NCBI GenBank assembly: GCA_028287065.1
Contig: JAQBQJ010000072.1
Location: forward strand, 1-33,489
DNA from: Labilithrix sp.
GTDB lineage: Bacteria > Myxococcota_A > Polyangia > Polyangiales > Polyangiaceae
DNA length: 33,489 nt
Direction of reading: 5' to 3'
Shown here: piece by piece, positions 3-10,746 of the stretch
Layout: the number at the start of each line of letters is the position of its first letter
Numbering within the stretch: the stretch's first letter is position 1
Notes under the pieces: model-generated
The model's database searches: none
Seen by the model: only the letters and a program-made list of their open reading frames with translations
What the model was told of the DNA's origin: nothing
Translations under genes and position numbers: made by a program

Positions 3-824
3 GACGTCACGCCGCCGAGCAGCGGCGGCGCGGCGAGTGGCTCGAGCGGCGGCGGCGCCGCGTTCGCGCCGCAGCTCGCGCCGCGCGACCTCGTCGGCGG
101 ACAGATCACCGAGCCGATGACCGCGGCGCTCGCCGGCTTCGTCGTCTACGTCGACACGAACGGCAACGGGAAGCTCGATCTCGAGGGTCAGTACGCCGAT
201 TCGCCGGATCAGATCATCGGCGGCAACAAGGAGCTGGTCCTCACCTATCTCAAGGGCGGCGGCGCGCTCGACTACGAGAAGCTGCGCGACAAGTCGGGCA
301 TCCTCCCGGCCGCAGGGTTCAACCTCGGGTGGACGCAGAGCGATCGTTGGCTGCCGCTCAACGTCGTCGAGCTTCAGCTCTCGGCGAAGGCGCAGCTCCC
401 GAACACGGTCTGCAGCTCGTATTCCGGCTACGACTCGAGCGGTACGTCCAGTGGCGGCACCATCGGCGCGGGGACGGTCTCGGTCGATGGAGGCTCGGCT
501 GGGAGCAGCAGCGGAAGCAGCGGGACCACCGGCGACTACTCCGGCTATCCGGACCCCTCCGACCCGAACCTCCACTGCTCGCCCGACGGACGCAGCTACA
601 CGTACGGGTCGTCGGCCCCCGACTGTCCGCCGTCGCCGCCGCCTCCGGTCGGTCTCTGCGCCGGCGATGTCTACGAGACGACCGCATGCGCCAGCCCGTA
701 CGGCTCGTCGCTGCAGCCGGGCCAGCCGGTTCCGGCGGGTTGGCCGTGCCCGACCGCCGTGGACGTCGACGGCGGCTCCGCCGACGCGGGTGTCATCGAC
801 GCCGGTTCGGCCGACGGCGGCTGA
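3..824 (+). CDS. 5'-truncated secreted/hypothetical protein, Ser/Gly-rich linker, contains DTNGNGKLDLE Ca-loop-like motif
   Basis: Frame 3 is open from the window edge (DVTPPSSGGAASGSSGGG...) through the tracked ORF 117..824, ending in TGA; low-complexity Ser/Gly segment typical of an exported protein. Confidence 0.7.
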   Translation, partial: DVTPPSSGGAASGSSGGGAAFAPQLAPRDLVGGQITEPMTAALAGFVVYVDTNGNGKLDLEGQYADSPDQIIGGNKELVLTYLKGGGALDYEKLRDKSGILPAAGFNLGWTQSDRWLPLNVVELQLSAKAQLPNTVCSSYSGYDSSGTSSGGTIGAGTVSVDGGSAGSSSGSSGTTGDYSGYPDPSDPNLHCSPDGRSYTYGSSAPDCPPSPPPPVGLCAGDVYETTACASPYGSSLQPGQPVPAGWPCPTAVDVDGGSADAGVIDAGSADGG

Positions 825-831
825 TCCTGCC

Positions 832-1401
832 TTGCAGCATGCGCGTTCATCCGGGCTGTCCGCCGCCGAGGTGAGCGACGTGTACCAGCGCTATGGTGCG
901 CTGCTCTCGCGTCGCTGCCGCCTCCTCTTGCGCGATCCTGCGCAGGCGGACGACGCCGTCCAGGAGCTCCTCTCGGTGCTCCTGCGACGGGGCGGTGGGC
1001 TACGAGCGGCGGACTCGCCGTATCGATGGCTTTGCCGCGCCGCGGACCGCGCGTGCATCGATCTGCTGCGGCGTGGAAAGCGCCTGCGCAGCGCCGTCGA
1101 CATCGACGACATCGACGACCTCGATCCCGTGGGCGTCGCACCTGGAATGGACCCGGAGGCTCGGTGCGCGGTCGTCGAATCCCTGGAACGCCTCGACGAA
1201 GAGCAGCAGTCGCTCGCGATCATGCTCTTCGTCGACGGCCTCAGTCAGGGCGAAGCGGCGGAGGAGCTCGGAGTGTCCCGCGTGACCATCAACAAGCGAG
1301 CGCAGGCGCTACGCACGCTGCTCCGCATCAGTCACACAGCCACGAGCGGCGAGCGCGAGCCAGGCAGCGATGCGCGTTCGACGAAGGAGGCGCGCACATG
1401 A
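832..1401 (+). CDS. ECF-like RNA polymerase sigma factor (start uncertain: TTG 832 or GTG 871)
   Basis: Part of frame-1 ORF 451..1401. Region-2-like QADDAVQELLSVLLRR...YRWLCRAADRACIDLLRR and region-4 HTH LDEEQQSLAIMLFVDGLSQGEAAEELGVSRVTINKRAQALR. The upstream part of the tracked ORF overlaps the preceding CDS and is not credible. Confidence 0.85.
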   Translation: MQHARSSGLSAAEVSDVYQRYGALLSRRCRLLLRDPAQADDAVQELLSVLLRRGGGLRAADSPYRWLCRAADRACIDLLRRGKRLRSAVDIDDIDDLDPVGVAPGMDPEARCAVVESLERLDEEQQSLAIMLFVDGLSQGEAAEELGVSRVTINKRAQALRTLLRISHTATSGEREPGSDARSTKEART

Positions 1402-2210
1402 GCCATCCCAGCAACCTCGACCTCGAAGCATTCGCCGTCGGCGAGCCGTTGCGCGCCGAGCACGCGCGTCACGTCGAAGAGTGCGCGGCATGTGGTGCGT
1501 TCCTCGAAGAGCTCCGCGGGGTCGTCGCGACAGGGCCCACCGCGAAAAAAGCCGACGACGCGGTCGCCCGCGCGATGCGCACGATGGGAGCGAGCGAGCG
1601 CGAACGCGAACGCGAGCCTGAGGCGCTCCACCCGAAGCGCGGGGCGGCGAACCGGAAGCTCTGGGTGCTCACGACGTCGGTGCTCGCACCGCTCGCGGCC
1701 GCAGCGGCGATCGTCCTCTCCCTGCGATCGGCCCCGCCGCCGGTCCACGCCTTGACTCCCGCGAACGAAGACCCGGAGCCGGCGGTCTCGACGACGATGA
1801 AGATCCAGATGGGGACCTTCCCGTCGGCGGTCGCGGAGCCCGACACGCGATTCAAGGGCGGGATGCAGCTCGCGGTCGTGCGCGCGCGCGGCGAGCAGCA
1901 GGTTCGCTTCTCGCCCGGCACGCGCACCGTGCACGTGAGGCCTGGAGACCGCATCCGTGTCGAGGTTGCGCTCGACCGCGAGCAGGCCATACTCGGCGCC
2001 GTGCTTGCGGACGACGGAAGCTATCTCGAGATCATGCCCGAGGCCGTGCGCGGGCCCGGCACTCACTACTCCGAGCGCTCCGCGAAGATCGACGCCGCGC
2101 CGACGCACGGCACGATCCTGATCGGCACGCCCGAAGCCGTGGCGCACGCACGCGCGACCCGGCAGCTCGACGGCGTCACCACGCTGCGCGTCGACTCGGA
2201 GAAGCCGTGA
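1398..2210 (+). CDS. Membrane-anchored zinc-finger (ZAS-type) anti-sigma factor
   Basis: ATG at 1398 overlaps the sigma stop by 4 bp (ATGA). HX3CX2C motif (HVEECAAC) near the N-terminus, one TM segment (LWVLTTSVLAPLAAAAAIVLSL), then an extracytoplasmic domain. Confidence 0.8.
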   Translation: MSHPSNLDLEAFAVGEPLRAEHARHVEECAACGAFLEELRGVVATGPTAKKADDAVARAMRTMGASEREREREPEALHPKRGAANRKLWVLTTSVLAPLAAAAAIVLSLRSAPPPVHALTPANEDPEPAVSTTMKIQMGTFPSAVAEPDTRFKGGMQLAVVRARGEQQVRFSPGTRTVHVRPGDRIRVEVALDREQAILGAVLADDGSYLEIMPEAVRGPGTHYSERSAKIDAAPTHGTILIGTPEAVAHARATRQLDGVTTLRVDSEKP

Positions 2211-3808
2211 TCTCGCGTGCCGCTCTGGCGGGTGCTGCCGTCGCCCTCGGCGTCGCGAGCTGGACCGGCACCGCGCTCGCCGAGCCGGTGCGCATCCTCG
2301 TCGCTGCCGGCAGCAAGCTCGGGCTCGCCGCAGAGCGCCCGCTCAAGTTCGCGTCGACCGATGCCACGCGCGTCCGCGACGTGGTCGTCAGCCTCGGCGG
2401 CGTGAAGCCCGAGCACGCGATCGTTCTGTCCGAGCCTTCGCGCGCGCAGCTGGTCGCCGCCGTCGATCGCGCGCGTACCGAGGCGCAGAAGCACCGCGCC
2501 GACGAGGTCACGCTGATCTTCTACTACAGCGGGCACGGCGATCACGACGCGATCCACCTCGGTGACGATCGCGTGCTCCTCACCGATCTCTCCGCCAAGC
2601 TCGGCGAGGTGCCGGCGGGGCTGCGCATCGCCGTCACGGACGCGTGCCGCGCCACGCGCGACAAGGGCTTCACCGCGGACGAGCCGTTCGCGATCGCCGC
2701 CACCAACGTTCCGCAGGCCACCGGCCAGGTGTGGTTGCACGCCTCGAGCGACGGCGAGGCCGCGCAGGAGTCCGACGAGCTCCAGGGCGCGATCTTCACG
2801 CACTCCTGGATCAACGGCCTCCGCGGCGCGGCGGACGCGAACGGCGACGCACGCGTCACCCTCGAGGAGAGCTTCGCGTTCGCGCACTCCCAGACGATGA
2901 TCCGCTCCGCGAAGAGCAGCGGCGTCCTCCAGAAGCCCGAAGCGGTGGTGAGCCTTCGCGAGGCCGCGCCCGTCGTCCTCACCGAGACGGCATCGCGCAT
3001 GGCCACCCTCTCGCTGCCGCGAGGGCGCGATGCGCACTTCCTCGTCTACTCGTCCGGCGCGAAGAGCGTGCTCTCGGAGCTGTGGAGCTCTCCCGATCGC
3101 CGCATCGTGCTGCGCGTGCCGCCCGGCCGTTACGTCGTCCAGCGCCGCGTCGGTGCGTTCGGCGGCCTCGCGACCATCGCGATCGGCGAGGGCGAAGAGC
3201 GCAAGCTCGAGGATCGCGAGTTCGCCGCGACCAGCCTCGAGGTCCTCGCGCGCAAGGGCGAAGAGGTCGAGCCCGACAAGGTCGCCGCGCCTCCGCCGGC
3301 CGAGACGCCGCATCACGAGCTCTCCGCGGGGTACGACGCGGGCGCGAACGTCCGTACGTCGTTCGTGCACGGACCGCACGCGAGCTGGGCGTACGCGTGG
3401 CCGCACGTCGCGATCAGCATCGGCGGCGGCGCAGATTTCACGGGGCGCGACCTCGCCGCGAAGGACGAGCGCCTCGCCTCTGGCTACGGGCGCGCGAGCG
3501 TCGAGTACCGGCTCCCGCTCGGTTCCGTCACGTTGCGCGGTGGAGCAGGCGGACGCGCCGGCCTCGTCGCGCAGACGATCGAGCCCACGGCCGCGGGCGC
3601 GCTCGATCCGTCGGTGAAGGCGGAATCGAAGACCGCATTCACGTTCGGGCCCGAGCTGTTCCTCGCCGCACGTTTCGCGCTGGATCCGCGACGAACCTTC
3701 TTCGTCGACATCGGCGCGACCGGCAACGTGCTGTTCCTCCGTGAAGAGGCATCGCTCGTCGGCGTCGCCGGTCTCATGGGCAGCGGCTCGCTCGGCGCCA
3801 GGTTCTGA
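2207..3808 (+). CDS. Secreted caspase-family (peptidase C14-like) protein with C-terminal beta-barrel-like region
   Basis: GTG start overlaps anti-sigma stop by 4 bp. Signal peptide MISRAALAGAAVALGVASWTGTALA; catalytic His motif FYYSGHGD (His codon 2534-2536) and Cys motif VTDACRA (Cys codon 2645-2647); alternating amphipathic C-terminus ending in Phe (GSLGARF). Confidence 0.85.
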   Translation: MISRAALAGAAVALGVASWTGTALAEPVRILVAAGSKLGLAAERPLKFASTDATRVRDVVVSLGGVKPEHAIVLSEPSRAQLVAAVDRARTEAQKHRADEVTLIFYYSGHGDHDAIHLGDDRVLLTDLSAKLGEVPAGLRIAVTDACRATRDKGFTADEPFAIAATNVPQATGQVWLHASSDGEAAQESDELQGAIFTHSWINGLRGAADANGDARVTLEESFAFAHSQTMIRSAKSSGVLQKPEAVVSLREAAPVVLTETASRMATLSLPRGRDAHFLVYSSGAKSVLSELWSSPDRRIVLRVPPGRYVVQRRVGAFGGLATIAIGEGEERKLEDREFAATSLEVLARKGEEVEPDKVAAPPPAETPHHELSAGYDAGANVRTSFVHGPHASWAYAWPHVAISIGGGADFTGRDLAAKDERLASGYGRASVEYRLPLGSVTLRGGAGGRAGLVAQTIEPTAAGALDPSVKAESKTAFTFGPELFLAARFALDPRRTFFVDIGATGNVLFLREEASLVGVAGLMGSGSLGARF

Positions 3809-3869: not shown

Positions 3870-5987
3870 TCAGCGCGGCGCGAAGCTCGCGCGGCGCGCG
3901 ACCTCGAGCCTCGGGCCGTCGAGCTTTCCCTCGACGATCTCGTACCCCATGAGGGCGAGCACGCGACCTCGAACGAAGAGCGGCCGCGCGTTGCCGTACC
4001 AGTCGACGCACGACGTGCGGCAGCGATCATCCTCCGTCTTGACCGCGCGCGCGGCGAGCGCGCCGAGCTCGCGGAACCGAAGGCCGTCGTGCTTCAGGTA
4101 CAGGACGCTCGCCGATCCCTCGACGAGGTGCTCGTAGCCCGCGGCCTGCGCGCTGCGGAGCGGAAGGGCGACGACTCCGCTGCGCTCGCCGTCGTTCCGA
4201 TAGAAGAAGCCGTGGCTCCGCAGCTCGCCCTGCGAGGCGCCCTTGCGCGTGTACGTGCCCGACGCGGACGCGCCGCCCCTGTCGAGGGCGATCGACGTGA
4301 ACGTGAGGTCCGCGCCGTTCGAGCCGACGACGATCGCGTCGTCGCCCATCCCCTCGATGCGGTCGACGCCGTGTGTGAGCGCGAGGCCGACCGCAGGTGT
4401 GCTCCCGGCGTAGCGATGCACGACGACGCGGACCTCGGCCGGCTTCTTCGCGTGCCCCCATCCTGCGCCGGTGCCGTACAGGAGATGATCGCCGACGAAG
4501 CGGTTGTGCAAGGTACCGCCTCGCGCCTCGGGCAACGGCACGTAGGCGGACGACGGCGCCGACTCCGCACGCGTCGTGAAGCTCGAGAGCGGGACCCGCA
4601 GCATCGCCATCGCGCCTGCGCTGTGCTCGGCCGACCACATCGCATCGCCGTTTGCCTCGGCGCGCACGAGCACGTTCAGGTGGTCGTCGCGCTCGAGGAA
4701 CGAGAGCTGATCGATCGGCGCACCGCGCGTCCGGAGCACGCGCGGCTCCTCCTTCGGATCGAGCGGCAGGCGATACAGGAGCGACGCGGCCGGACGCTCG
4801 ACGCGCACGGCGTCGTTCGGGACACGCGGCGTCGAGGGCGTCATCCACACGTACACCGCGCCGGGTGAGACGTAGAAGACGCGACCTGACGGGCCGAGCA
4901 CGCCGCGTGCGCTGCACGTCATCTCGCCGCCGGGTCCGCGCGTGCCGAGGTCGCACGTCGTGACGGTGTGCAGCGACAGGTTGCCCGGGCTCGGCGGATC
5001 GAGCGGCCGCGCGATGTGCGTCGGCGCGATGATCGTCGAGAAGTCCGTGCTCGTGGCGCCGGGCTTCCAGCGACGAAGCGCGGGGAGCCACCCGAGCGGC
5101 TCGCGCGCATCCAGCCGGACGTGGAGCGGCGTATAGAAGACGAGCTGATTGCCGATGAGCCGGCTCGAGTAGTTCCGCGACGAGTAATAGTCGTTCCCGC
5201 GCAGGTGGTACGTCGCGCGCGGCGTGATGTGGCCGGACGCATCGAGGTCGAAGAGCCCGATCTCGGTCCCGCCGCGCGCGTAGCTATAACCGATCACCAC
5301 GACCGTGTCGGTCGTGACGAGGAGCTCGTCGTACCAGGCGCCGGCGGGGTCGACGTCCGGGCCGAAGGCGTCGACGGCGGACACGCGCGCGAGGTCGCCG
5401 AGGCGCACGGTGAAGAGCCGGCCGCGACGAAGCACGACGAGATGCTCGCCCCGCACCTTGACGATGCCTCCCTCGTCGACGCCGGCGTGCTGGGTGTTCG
5501 TGACGGAGGTCGTCGCGCCGGTGCCGGTGCCCGAGCTCGCGCCCGCGCCGTGACCGAGCGTTCCGACGCTGCCGAGGCCGATGCCTTCTCCCTTCCCTCC
5601 TCCGCCCTCGCCGGCGCCGCTCAGGCCGAGGCCGCCCGCGCCGAAGGCATCGCCGATCGCGTCACCCCACATGTCTCCGGCGGCGGAGGACGGATCGGCG
5701 GGCTCGGCGACGTCGCTGCCGGCCGGCGTGGCCGCGCCGCGGCTGCGCGCGAGGCCGCGCACGTACGCGACGAGCTCGTCGTTCGACGCAAACGTCGCGA
5801 GGGCCTCGGCGCGCGCTTCTCGTCCGGCATCGGCGACCGCGGCGGGCGAAGACGACGCCGACGGCGGAGCGGCCGAGGGAACGCTCGGGCGGTCGACGGC
5901 CCCGATAGGGGCGCCGCATGCGGCCGCATACGCGCTCGCGCCAGCGCACACGAGGAGCCCGAGAGCCGCACGACGCACGGAGACCAT
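3870..5987 (-). CDS. Secreted lipoprotein with C-terminal beta-propeller domain (Beta_propel family-like)
   Basis: Lipobox-like YAAACGAP; TNTQHAGVDEGGIVKVRGEHLVVLRRGRLFTVRL resembles the conserved TN.Q..GVDE.DIVK start of this family. Confidence 0.8.
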   Translation of the reverse strand: MVSVRRAALGLLVCAGASAYAAACGAPIGAVDRPSVPSAAPPSASSSPAAVADAGREARAEALATFASNDELVAYVRGLARSRGAATPAGSDVAEPADPSSAAGDMWGDAIGDAFGAGGLGLSGAGEGGGGKGEGIGLGSVGTLGHGAGASSGTGTGATTSVTNTQHAGVDEGGIVKVRGEHLVVLRRGRLFTVRLGDLARVSAVDAFGPDVDPAGAWYDELLVTTDTVVVIGYSYARGGTEIGLFDLDASGHITPRATYHLRGNDYYSSRNYSSRLIGNQLVFYTPLHVRLDAREPLGWLPALRRWKPGATSTDFSTIIAPTHIARPLDPPSPGNLSLHTVTTCDLGTRGPGGEMTCSARGVLGPSGRVFYVSPGAVYVWMTPSTPRVPNDAVRVERPAASLLYRLPLDPKEEPRVLRTRGAPIDQLSFLERDDHLNVLVRAEANGDAMWSAEHSAGAMAMLRVPLSSFTTRAESAPSSAYVPLPEARGGTLHNRFVGDHLLYGTGAGWGHAKKPAEVRVVVHRYAGSTPAVGLALTHGVDRIEGMGDDAIVVGSNGADLTFTSIALDRGGASASGTYTRKGASQGELRSHGFFYRNDGERSGVVALPLRSAQAAGYEHLVEGSASVLYLKHDGLRFRELGALAARAVKTEDDRCRTSCVDWYGNARPLFVRGRVLALMGYEIVEGKLDGPRLEVARRASFAPR

Positions 5988-6226: not shown

Positions 6227-7567
6227 TCACGGTACGACTTCGACGCGCGTCCCGTCCGCGAGCTCGGCGCTCCCGAGCTTCACGACGCGATCGCCTTCGG
6301 TGATCCCCGTCGCGAGCTCGATGGTGGGGCCGGTGTCGCGCTCCACGACCACCGGCACGAGCTTCAGCTTCGAATCCGGCCCCACGACGGCGATGCGCAT
6401 GCCCTTCGCGTCGTTCATGACGGCGGTTGCCGGCACCTCGAACACGCGATGCGGCGACGGCAGCGTCAGCGCGACCTGCGCGTACATTCCACCGAGCAGC
6501 TCGCCCTTGGGGTTCGGAACGCGGATCTCCGTGTTCATCGTGCGCGACGCCGGATCGAGCGAGCCCGCCGCGCGCGCGACCTTGCCTTCGAACGTCCGAC
6601 CGGCGAACTCGCGCACCGTGACCTGCGCGGGAACGTCGGTGCGCACGCTGGGCGCCACGTCCTGCGGGACCTGCACGAAGACGCGCACCGGGTCGACGTT
6701 CGAGATCTTGTAGAGCGGCGTGGTCGGCGACACGAGCGCGCCGCGCTCGATCATGCGGCCGTTCACGGTGCCCGCGAACGGCGCGGTGACGCGTCCCCAG
6801 GACTTCATCTGCACGAGGCGTCGCACGTTCGCCTTCTGCGCCTCGATCGCTGCCTGCGCGACCTTGACGTTCGCCTCGTCGACGAGCGACTGCGACTGCT
6901 TCTGATCGAGCTCCTGCTGCGAGGCGACGCCCTGCGGCGTGAGCTTCTTGTAGCGTTCGAGGGTGGTGACCGAGAAATCGCGGTTCGCCGTGGCCTGCAC
7001 GAGCGCGGCCTGCGATTGCACGAGCTGCGCGCGCGCCTGGTCGAGCTGCTGGTCGATCTCCGGCGTGTCGATCTCGACGAGCACCGCGCCCGCTTCGACC
7101 TTGTCGCCCATGTCGGCGTGCCACTTGCCGACGTAGCCGCTCGAGCGCGGATAAACGACCGTCTCCTCGAGGGGCTGCACGCTGCCGGGCAGGGCCATCG
7201 AGCGATCGCTCGACTTCACCTTCGGCGCCACGACCTGCACGCGGAGCGTGGCCGTGTCGTTGTTCTTCGTCGCCTCGGCGAGCTCGCGCTGCGCGTGCCG
7301 CTTCGGGAGCCACGCGAGCAGGAATGCCGCCGCGACCAGCACGGCAGCGATCGCCGCGAACGCGATGACGCGCGTCGCGTTCACCTTCGCCGGCGAAGGC
7401 AGGTCGAAGCCGAGATCGCCGTGCGGAGGGTGCTCCTTCACGTGCTCGCCATGCAGTACCGCAAGCTGCGCGTGCGGCCCGTGCGGCGCGTGCGGCGTGT
7501 GCTGCGCGTGCTGCGCCTGTCGCGGCGTGGTGGTCGCGGTATTCGGCGGATCGCCAAGAGCGGTCAT
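6227..7567 (-). CDS. RND efflux periplasmic adaptor subunit (HlyD/membrane-fusion family) with His-rich N-terminus
   Basis: MTALGDPPN start at 7567. One N-terminal TM, lipoyl/barrel-sandwich halves (SGYVGKWHADMGDKVEAGAVLVEIDTPEID ... VTAPFAGTVNGRMIERGALVSP), coiled coil between. Confidence 0.9.
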   Translation of the reverse strand: MTALGDPPNTATTTPRQAQHAQHTPHAPHGPHAQLAVLHGEHVKEHPPHGDLGFDLPSPAKVNATRVIAFAAIAAVLVAAAFLLAWLPKRHAQRELAEATKNNDTATLRVQVVAPKVKSSDRSMALPGSVQPLEETVVYPRSSGYVGKWHADMGDKVEAGAVLVEIDTPEIDQQLDQARAQLVQSQAALVQATANRDFSVTTLERYKKLTPQGVASQQELDQKQSQSLVDEANVKVAQAAIEAQKANVRRLVQMKSWGRVTAPFAGTVNGRMIERGALVSPTTPLYKISNVDPVRVFVQVPQDVAPSVRTDVPAQVTVREFAGRTFEGKVARAAGSLDPASRTMNTEIRVPNPKGELLGGMYAQVALTLPSPHRVFEVPATAVMNDAKGMRIAVVGPDSKLKLVPVVVERDTGPTIELATGITEGDRVVKLGSAELADGTRVEVVP

Positions 7568-10500
7568 ACGGCCTCGAGCTCGGGGTCGTGGGTCTTCGGA
7601 GGCGTGCGGCGGAGGATGCTGTACATGACGGGCACGAAGAAGAGAGTGGTGAGCGTTGCGAGGACGAGGCCGCCGATGACGGCGCGGCCGAGCGGCGCGT
7701 TCTGCTCGCCGCCTTCGCCGAGACCGAGCGACATCGGGAGCATGCCGATGATCATCGCGAGCGCCGTCATCAGCACGGGACGAAGGCGCGTCATGCCCGC
7801 CGCGAGCGCGGCGTCGGTCGCGCCTCGGCCGACGGTGCGCTGATCGTTCGCGAAGGTGACGACGAGGATGCTGTTCGCCGTCGCCACGCCGACGCACATG
7901 ATCGAGCCCATCAGCGCGGGGACGCTGAGCGTGGTGTGCGTGAGGAACAGGATCCAGGCGATGCCCGCGATCGCGCCCGGCAGCGCCATCAGGATGACGA
8001 ACGGGTCGAGCCACGACTGGAAGTTCACGACCATGAGCAGATACACGAGGAGCACGGCGAAGATCAGACCGTAGCCGAGGCCCTGGAACGACGACTCCAT
8101 GCTCTCGGCCTGGCCCTTGATCCGGACCGTGGTGCCGCGCGGGAAGCTCGGTTTCAGCTCGTTCACGATGCCGTTGACCGCGCCCGCGACCGATCCGAGA
8201 TCGGCGCCGTCGACGCTGACCTGGACGTCGTACGTCCGCGACGCGTTGAAGTGCGTGACGTTCGCCGGCCCCGCCGAGCGCGACACCTGCGCGACGTTCG
8301 ACAAGAACTGCGGAGCGCCGGACTCGCCGGTCGAGAGCGGCGTCTGCCCGAGGTCCTCGATCGAGCCGAGCTCGTATTGCGGGGTCTGCACGGCGACGAG
8401 GTACTGCACGCCGCGCTTCGCATCGAGCCAGTAGCTCGGCGACACCTGCGAGCTCGACGAGAGCGAGATCAGGAGGTCGCTCGCGATGTCGCGCTCCGTG
8501 AGGTTCTGCTGCCGCGCCATCGTCCGATCGACGTCGATCTTGATCTGAGGAACGCGCGGGACCTGCGCGAGGTGCACGTCGACCGCGCCCGGCACCTTCG
8601 AGACGCGCCCGGCGATCTGCTTCGCGACCTCGTACGTCGCGTCCTCGTTACCCACGCCGCCGACGACCTGGACGTCGATCGGCGCAGCGAGGCCGAAGTT
8701 CAGGACCTGCGTCGAGATGTCCGGCGCGAGGAAGAAGAACGTCGTGCCCGGGTACTTGTCGTGCAGCACCTGCCGCAGCTTGCGGACGTAGCCGGCCGTA
8801 GGCTCGTGGTCCTCCTTCAGCGCGATCAGGATGTCGCCGTCGGCCGGGGAGATCGACGTGCCCTCGCTCAGCGAGAGGTTGATGCCGCTGTAAGGCGTGC
8901 CGATGTTGTCGAGCATCGTGTCGATGCCCTCGGCCGGGATGACGGTCTTGATCGTCCCTTCGATGTCGGCGAAGCGCCGCTCGCTCTCCTCGATGCGCAT
9001 GCCGGGCTCGCTGCGGACATGCAGCTTGATGAGGCCGGCGTCGACGCTCGGGAAGAAGTCGCGCCCGATGAGCGGCAGGAGCGCGGTGACCGACGCGACG
9101 ACGAGGACCATGAAGGTCACCGCGAACGCAGCGCGATGACGGAGCGAGAGCGCGAGGAGTCGCCCGTAGCGCGTGCGCAGCGCGTCGAAGCCACGATTGA
9201 AGCCGGCGAACAGCCGCTCGAAGAAGCTCCGCGGCACGCCGGCGTGGCCGTGCGCGTGCGCCTCGGACTCCTTCCGGAGCAGGAAGTGCACGAGCGTGGG
9301 CACGAGCGTTCGCGACAGGAAGTACGACATCATCATCGCGAACACGACCGCCATCGCGAGCGGCACGAACAGCGACTTCGCCGACCCGGTGATGAACGCG
9401 ACCGGCACGAACACGATGCAGATGCAGAGCGTCGACACGAACGCGGGCGTGGCGATCTCCTGCGCGCCGTCGATGATGGCGCGCACGAAGGGCTTCTTCT
9501 GCGCCATGTTGCGATGGATGTTCTCGATCGACACGGTCGCGTCGTCGACGAGGATGCCGACGGCGAGCGCCATGCCTCCGAGCGTCATGACGTTCAGGCT
9601 CTGGCCGAGCAGCGCCAGGACGATGATCGACGTGAGGATCGAGAGCGGAATGGAAACGACGACGATCAGCGTGCTCCGCCAGCTCCCGAGGAAGAGCAGG
9701 ATCATGAGCGCGGTGAGACCAGCGGCGATCGCCGCCTCCTTCACGACGCCGTCGACGGCGGCTCGCACGAACAGCGACTGATCGAAGAGCAGCGAGACCT
9801 TCAGCTCCTTCGGCAGCTTCGCGAGCGTCGCTGGAAGCGCTTCGCGGATGTGCTTCACGATGTCGAGCGTGCTCACGTTTCCGTTCTTGAGGACGGACAT
9901 GAGGACGGAGCGCTTGCCGCCCACGTGCACCATGTTCGTCTGCGGCGAATAGCCGTCGCGCACGTTGCCGACGTCGCGCACGTAGACCGTCGTCCCCTTC
10001 ACGCTCTTGATCGGGAGATCGCCGATCTCCTTGATGACCTCCGGGCTGCTGTTGAGCAGGACGGGGTACTCGTTCGTGCCCATCTTCGTCGTGCCGGTCG
10101 GCAGGATGACGTTCTGGGTCGCGATCGCGTTGTTCACGTCGCGCGGCGACAGCCCGAACCCGTAGAGGCGCGCGGGATCGATGTCGACCATGATCTGGCG
10201 CTGCTTGCCGCCGTACGGCCACGGGATCTGCGTGCCCTGGATGGTCGCGAGGTCCGCGCGCACGAAGTTCGTGCCGTAGTCGAAGAGCTGCTGCTCGCTC
10301 AGCGCGTCACTCTCGAGCGCTGCCTGGAGGATCGGAACGTTCGACGCGCTGTAGCGGATGATGAAGGGCGGCGTGGCGCCGGGCGGCATCTGCTTCAGCA
10401 CGGACTGCGAGACGGCGGTCACCTGGGCGGTCGCGGCGTCGATGTGCGCGCCGGGCTGGAAGTAGATCTTCACGACCGCGATGCCGGTCAGCGACTGGCT

Positions 10501-10746
10501 CTCGACGTGCTCGATGTCGTTGACCGTCGTCGTGAGAATGCGCTCGTAGTTCGTGACGATGCGCTTCTCCATCTCCTCGGGAGAGAGGCCCGTGTAGTTC
10601 CAGATGACGGAGATGACCGGGATGTCGATGTCCGGGAAGATGTCCGTCGGCATCCGGATGATGGAAAACACCCCCATGATGACGATGAGCATCGCCATCA
10701 CGACGAACGTGTACGGGCGCCGCAGCGCGATTCTAACGAGCCACAT
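7564..10746 (-). CDS. RND efflux permease (AcrB/HAE-like)
   Basis: 1060 aa; MWLVRIALRRPYTFVVMAMLIVIMGVFSI start, GGMALAVGILVDDATVSIENIHR TM4 motif, duplicated TM architecture; 4-bp overlap with the adaptor gene. Confidence 0.95.
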   Translation of the reverse strand: MWLVRIALRRPYTFVVMAMLIVIMGVFSIIRMPTDIFPDIDIPVISVIWNYTGLSPEEMEKRIVTNYERILTTTVNDIEHVESQSLTGIAVVKIYFQPGAHIDAATAQVTAVSQSVLKQMPPGATPPFIIRYSASNVPILQAALESDALSEQQLFDYGTNFVRADLATIQGTQIPWPYGGKQRQIMVDIDPARLYGFGLSPRDVNNAIATQNVILPTGTTKMGTNEYPVLLNSSPEVIKEIGDLPIKSVKGTTVYVRDVGNVRDGYSPQTNMVHVGGKRSVLMSVLKNGNVSTLDIVKHIREALPATLAKLPKELKVSLLFDQSLFVRAAVDGVVKEAAIAAGLTALMILLFLGSWRSTLIVVVSIPLSILTSIIVLALLGQSLNVMTLGGMALAVGILVDDATVSIENIHRNMAQKKPFVRAIIDGAQEIATPAFVSTLCICIVFVPVAFITGSAKSLFVPLAMAVVFAMMMSYFLSRTLVPTLVHFLLRKESEAHAHGHAGVPRSFFERLFAGFNRGFDALRTRYGRLLALSLRHRAAFAVTFMVLVVASVTALLPLIGRDFFPSVDAGLIKLHVRSEPGMRIEESERRFADIEGTIKTVIPAEGIDTMLDNIGTPYSGINLSLSEGTSISPADGDILIALKEDHEPTAGYVRKLRQVLHDKYPGTTFFFLAPDISTQVLNFGLAAPIDVQVVGGVGNEDATYEVAKQIAGRVSKVPGAVDVHLAQVPRVPQIKIDVDRTMARQQNLTERDIASDLLISLSSSSQVSPSYWLDAKRGVQYLVAVQTPQYELGSIEDLGQTPLSTGESGAPQFLSNVAQVSRSAGPANVTHFNASRTYDVQVSVDGADLGSVAGAVNGIVNELKPSFPRGTTVRIKGQAESMESSFQGLGYGLIFAVLLVYLLMVVNFQSWLDPFVILMALPGAIAGIAWILFLTHTTLSVPALMGSIMCVGVATANSILVVTFANDQRTVGRGATDAALAAGMTRLRPVLMTALAMIIGMLPMSLGLGEGGEQNAPLGRAVIGGLVLATLTTLFFVPVMYSILRRTPPKTHDPELEAV

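Follow-up and report, generated by a model that had tools for sequence, protein, structure and literature searches.

To my knowledge, most bacterial caspases have no known function. Their genetic linkage to sigma factors is not new, since sigma-70 genes in metacaspase operons were reported in 2012 from four operons of Myxococcus xanthus and from Anaeromyxobacter, Haliangium and Sorangium, as well as from Ralstonia and Fibrobacter (Asplund-Samuelsson et al. 2012, PMC3501461). The Labilithrix operon described here shows the same kind of linkage and very likely belongs to the same family as those myxobacterial operons; the operon section of that paper mentions no anti-sigma factor, cleavage-site code, membrane anchor, lipoprotein, promoter or mechanism (PMC3501461).

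By analogy, the nearest mechanism is that of Craspase, the type III-E CRISPR system Csx29/Csx30/CASP-sigma, in which a caspase-like protease cuts the inhibitor of an ECF-like sigma factor and for which, as here, positive autoregulation has been proposed (PMC10028731). Craspase is a cytoplasmic, RNA-activated TPR-CHAT protease of a CRISPR locus, whereas the caspase of the present module is predicted to be exported, has a C14 p20 domain and is paired with a zinc-motif membrane anti-sigma factor; its C14 domain and signal peptide place it outside Craspase. The likeness to type III CRISPR protease-sigma modules drawn in a preliminary description of this DNA holds as an analogy of mechanism, not as kinship. 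PADLOC, run on the three proteins, returned only a weak generic caspase match and no CRISPR features, the wider locus lying outside that scan.

Three other systems share single traits with the module. In RseA/DegS/RseP a membrane anti-sigma factor undergoes a periplasmic site-1 cut and then a site-2 cut, as is proposed here; DegS, however, is a PDZ trypsin-fold protease of the inner membrane, while the present protease is a Cys protease with a barrel-like domain, encoded in one operon with its proposed substrate. Characterised non-metazoan C14 proteases prefer Arg/Lys at P1, and the orthocaspase MaOC1 autoprocesses, release of the p20 domain being needed for activity (PMC5756287). The C14 p20 domain is common to MaOC1-type enzymes and the present caspase, for which Lys/Arg preference and autoprocessing are only proposed; no such physiological substrate, barrel, sigma or anti-sigma factor has been described for them (PMC5756287). 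In ECF54, the CHAT/subtilase-linked ECF group, sigma genes likewise lie near caspase-like domains, but regulation is proposed to work without an anti-sigma factor (PMC8999054), and the regular presence of one in the present family (see below) excludes membership. In the open-access literature, which leaves out subscription papers and preprints, no account was found of an exported caspase that has an anti-sigma factor as its target, nor of the anti-sigma factor, cleavage code, membrane anchor and feedback promoter of this module.

The operon and its products

The window, i.e. the whole stretch of 33,489 nucleotides that was analysed, carries the following features.

3-824, plus strand: 3' part of a lipoprotein gene, the first of the operon; homologues directly before the sigma gene in at least 15 relatives
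832-1401, plus strand: gene for an ECF sigma factor, with TTG as the most likely start codon
1398-2210, plus strand: gene for a predicted single-pass membrane anti-sigma factor with zinc motif, transmembrane helix and DUF4384-like periplasmic domain
1470-1493, plus strand: H-x3-C-x2-C zinc anti-sigma motif (H25, C29, C32); H in 40/44 and each C in 41/44 anti-sigma factors
1665-1721, plus strand: anti-sigma transmembrane helix (about residues 90-108), from hydropathy
1854-1859, plus strand: anti-sigma Lys153-Gly154, where the caspase is proposed to cut, 45 residues beyond the transmembrane helix
2207-3808, plus strand: gene for a predicted exported C14 caspase (orthocaspase) with Peptidase_C14 domain, signal peptide and catalytic dyad
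2207-2281, plus strand: predicted Sec signal peptide, residues 1-25, ending ..TALA before EPVR; relatives' N-termini similar
2534-2536, plus strand: catalytic His110
2639-2647, plus strand: Asp145-Ala-Cys147, with catalytic Cys147; Asp145 in 44/44 caspases
2663-2668, plus strand: caspase Lys153-Gly154, proposed self-cleavage site 1, six residues past the catalytic Cys
2834-2869, plus strand: EF-hand-like loop DANGDARVTLEE (residues 210-221), possible calcium site
3254-3259, plus strand: caspase Lys350-Gly351, proposed self-cleavage site 2, where the soluble part gives way to the barrel
3359-3805, plus strand: C-terminal outer-membrane beta-barrel-like domain, strand-rich, ending ..GARF with a terminal Phe

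The preliminary description had read an operon of three genes, for an ECF-like sigma factor, a zinc-type membrane anti-sigma factor and a secreted caspase-fold protease. The three reading frames and their 4-bp overlaps (ATGA at 1398-1401, GTGA at 2207-2210), from which co-transcription is inferred, are borne out, and so are the first two identifications; what needs correcting is the extent of the operon, which comprises four genes in the window's clade, where the lipoprotein gene is kept in front of the sigma gene. The 5' end of the lipoprotein gene is found, together with the promoter, on a different contig of this genome (G000:C456, locus L379), whose end overlaps the start of the window by 26 identical bases inside that gene.

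ECF membership of the sigma factor rests on regions 2 and 4, both exceeding curated cut-offs (TIGR02937, E 2.8e-16; Pfam Sigma70_r2 and r4_2). In profile searches the window's anti-sigma factor has by itself no Pfam match, neither to zf-HC2 nor to DUF4384, which are matched by 9/24 and 6/24 members of its family, respectively. Its motif, its single transmembrane helix and its linkage to a sigma gene satisfy the definition of zinc (ZAS) anti-sigma factors; that it binds and inhibits the sigma factor is inferred.

The p20 domain (Peptidase_C14, PF00656: 43.9 bits, cut-off 21.4, E 2.9e-11; matched by all 24 family members searched) and the His-Cys dyad make the third protein a C14 caspase/orthocaspase. 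None of the 223 caspases departs from the catalytic His and Cys. Asp145, likewise invariant and placed two positions ahead of the Cys, fits an acidic pocket; Lys/Arg-specific activity is inferred. The EF-hand-like loop is nearly invariant (D210 in 44/44, D214 in 42/44, E221 in 43/44) and is hit by an EF-hand profile in one family member, which suggests that it may bind calcium.

The claim of a secreted protease stands as regards the C14 domain, the dyad (H110/C147) and the signal peptide. Free secretion was rejected: the small C-terminal domain resembling an outer-membrane barrel favours a barrel-anchored form, and the caspase is probably not freely secreted. Seven long strands appear in this region of the AlphaFold model, the C-terminal residue is Phe in 97/197 and Trp in 20/197 caspases (together 117/197), and 2/24 family members match OMP_b-brl. 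These are weaker signs, and barrel and topology remain inferred, both AlphaFold models (caspase and anti-sigma factor) being of low confidence, with three sequences only and pLDDT of 37 and 50; a PDB sequence search returned no useful relative.

Conservation of the gene order

Caspase homologues were gathered regardless of their neighbours from 145 genomes of the order, 318 of the class and 379 of the phylum, with profile matches in 160/318 class genomes and 144/379 phylum genomes. This yielded 223 distinct caspase loci, 215 of them with enough sequence for neighbours to be scored. The search of myxobacterial genomes for the three-gene order, which the preliminary description had suggested as a check, finds the order conserved, so that the first of its refuting outcomes did not occur, with a sigma neighbour in 194/215 loci (188 directly upstream of the caspase and 6 downstream in a rearranged order) and an anti-sigma factor in 200/215. 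The choice of loci favoured high-scoring matches, hence the exact percentage with a sigma factor is not an unbiased estimate. Given about 55 sigma-region-4 matches in the 7.1 Mb of the window's genome, the chance of a same-strand sigma gene within 2 kb upstream of any gene is roughly 1%, against the 188/215 observed.

In the rearranged loci (L058, L068, L072, L073, L078 and L079) the caspase comes first, followed after about 1 kb by sigma and anti-sigma genes. About 20 caspase loci are without a detected sigma factor. In L180, L185, L186, L207, L212 and L226 neither a sigma nor an anti-sigma factor was detected adjoining the caspase, and the basic-Gly after the catalytic Cys is kept where readable. 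Locus L089 (G120:C87), with caspase and anti-sigma fragments in different frames, resembles a decayed copy of the module.

Lys/Arg-Gly sites in the caspase and the anti-sigma factor

In the first 44 anti-sigma factors conservation peaks at a basic-Gly dipeptide of the linker (Lys in 41/44, Arg in 3/44, Gly in 44/44), above even the zinc ligands. Its distance from the transmembrane helix varies from about 8 to 47 residues. Among 11 zinc-motif transmembrane proteins without a caspase, admittedly a small control, none has Lys-Gly and two have Arg-Gly in the linker. The caspase carries the same dipeptide twice. At site 1 the catalytic Cys is followed at a distance of 6 to 9 residues by a basic residue, usually with Gly next to it, in the region of the caspase activation loop; site 2 precedes the C-terminal barrel and was identified post hoc, having surfaced as an outlier among control columns.

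The identity of the basic residue co-varies between the proteins. Caspase site 1 and the anti-sigma site match in 188/202 systems (130 K/K, 58 R/R) and differ in 14 (12 R/K, 2 K/R), two systems being omitted for an anti-sigma factor not alignable at the site. The main exception is the clade of L090, L252, L304, L312 and L330, with RPRD after the caspase Cys and Lys-Gly in the anti-sigma factor. In Pagel's test of dependent against independent evolution (4 df, on a caspase tree from which the site had been left out), the likelihood ratio is 33.9 for site 1 and the anti-sigma site (p about 8e-7), 34.9 for sites 1 and 2, and 19.6 for site 2 and the anti-sigma site; four other K/R columns give 2.2-9.4, and 43 simulated nulls have a mean of 5.6 and a maximum of 14.9. 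Matched switches occur in both directions, to R/R among K/K relatives (L080, L335) and to K/K among R/R relatives (L221/L227/L229/L232 and L224), and both types are found within single genomes (G101, with L035 K/K and L083 R/R; G131, with L038 K/K and L082 R/R). Parsimony infers 15 changes at the anti-sigma site and only about six at caspase site 1, so that the correlation rests on few events.

The simplest reading that fits these data is a single Lys/Arg specificity acting at three sites, by which the caspase would cut itself twice and the anti-sigma factor once. The paucity of independent switches leaves some room for the view that the dipeptides are structural and their correlation a product of shared ancestry or base composition; this view is given next to no credence here, for the phylogeny-aware test and the simulated nulls reject independence, and a single genome can contain modules of both types, R/R and K/K. 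Correlated Lys/Arg at three sites would likewise be expected if caspase and anti-sigma factor were both substrates of a third, trypsin-like protease, which the Lys/Arg identity would then track; such an arrangement is improbable, as the K/K and R/R modules within G101 and within G131 would each require a third protease of their own.

Equally, a docked site would co-evolve with the pocket, and the anti-sigma ectodomain might be a pseudosubstrate whose basic-Gly sits uncut in the caspase pocket and keeps the enzyme inactive. Little weight is attached to this possibility: the linker that ends in the site is variable in length and predicted (at low confidence) to be disordered, which suits a cut site better than a rigid inhibitor, and the same dipeptide stands twice in the caspase itself.

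Operon promoter and a proposed trans-envelope switch

Upstream of the lipoprotein gene lies a conserved TTTACA-N15-TGCGTC, an ECF-type promoter with a CGTC-like -10 element present in relatives and in the window's genome. Its core is common to 9/11 relatives' sequences (at most 4 in shuffles), and TTACA-N15-TGCGTC stands once before the operon in each of nine genomes; three further core matches, two in G127 and one in G081, are without operon context. The window's genome has a single strict match, 40 bases before the lipoprotein start. A wider regulon, sought in six genomes with a relaxed pattern (two more bases, one mismatch allowed), yielded only one match beyond the operon sites (G081:C67). 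It is inferred that the operon's own sigma factor recognises this promoter, and because the promoter is nearly unique to the operon, the sigma factor probably drives chiefly its own operon, as a positive-feedback switch; the loop would then probably be self-amplifying.

The preliminary description had left two options, namely that the caspase cuts the anti-sigma factor or that it is the main target of the sigma factor, and each gains comparative support, the former from the shared, co-evolving Lys/Arg-Gly sites (cleavage itself being inferred) and the latter from the promoter directly before the operon. With the likely promoter of the sigma factor in that position, the caspase is a plausible output, and it could be an effector and nothing more, a general site-1 protease of DegS or PrsW type releasing the anti-sigma factor. 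This appears unlikely, in that it leaves unexplained why the anti-sigma factor should bear a caspase-type basic-Gly motif with co-evolving Lys/Arg.

The reading preferred here, with a probability of roughly 0.68, is that the module is a caspase-driven, self-amplifying trans-envelope signalling switch. It builds on the observed gene content and order, their conservation, the invariant dyad, the three co-evolving basic-Gly sites and the unique promoter; every cleavage, the topology, the site-2 step, the signal and the output are inferences from sequence. The zinc-type anti-sigma factor would hold the sigma factor at the inner membrane, its DUF4384-like domain hanging in the periplasm on a flexible linker, and the exported caspase would be tethered in the outer membrane by its C-terminal barrel, with the catalytic domain towards the periplasm. 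The caspase would be activated by an unidentified signal in the envelope, for which the barrel, the lipoprotein or the calcium-like loop may be the sensor. It may then cut itself at two places, after the Lys/Arg of the loop that follows the catalytic Cys, as its activation step, and after the Lys/Arg ahead of the barrel, which would free it from the outer membrane; the next cut, the site-1 step, would fall after the Lys/Arg in the juxtamembrane linker of the anti-sigma factor. A site-2 protease, for which Peptidase_M50 genes in the window's genome are candidates, would free the sigma factor to transcribe its own operon from TTTACA-N15-TGCGTC. The main weaknesses are the fourteen mismatched systems, the few independent switches and the shallow structure models.

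It is also judged somewhat likely that these loci form a phylum-wide class of envelope signalling, with a caspase tethered in the outer membrane as the dedicated site-1 protease of an anti-sigma factor, a Lys/Arg-Gly code that is written three times and a positive-feedback loop that recognises no promoter but its own. If true, a large group of bacterial caspases would gain a physiological substrate with a cut site predicted at residue level, and a role in signalling, not in cell death alone; a caspase-family Cys protease would join the initiators of regulated intramembrane proteolysis of anti-sigma factors outside CRISPR. Through the three-site code, cut sites and protease specificity could be read from sequence across Myxococcota.

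As to the surroundings of the operon, a gene for a FabH-like ketoacyl synthase is found on C456, upstream of its promoter and divergent from it, and downstream, on the minus strand of the window, positions 3870-5987 and 6227-10746 encode, as read from their translations, a large secreted protein and an RND-type efflux pair.
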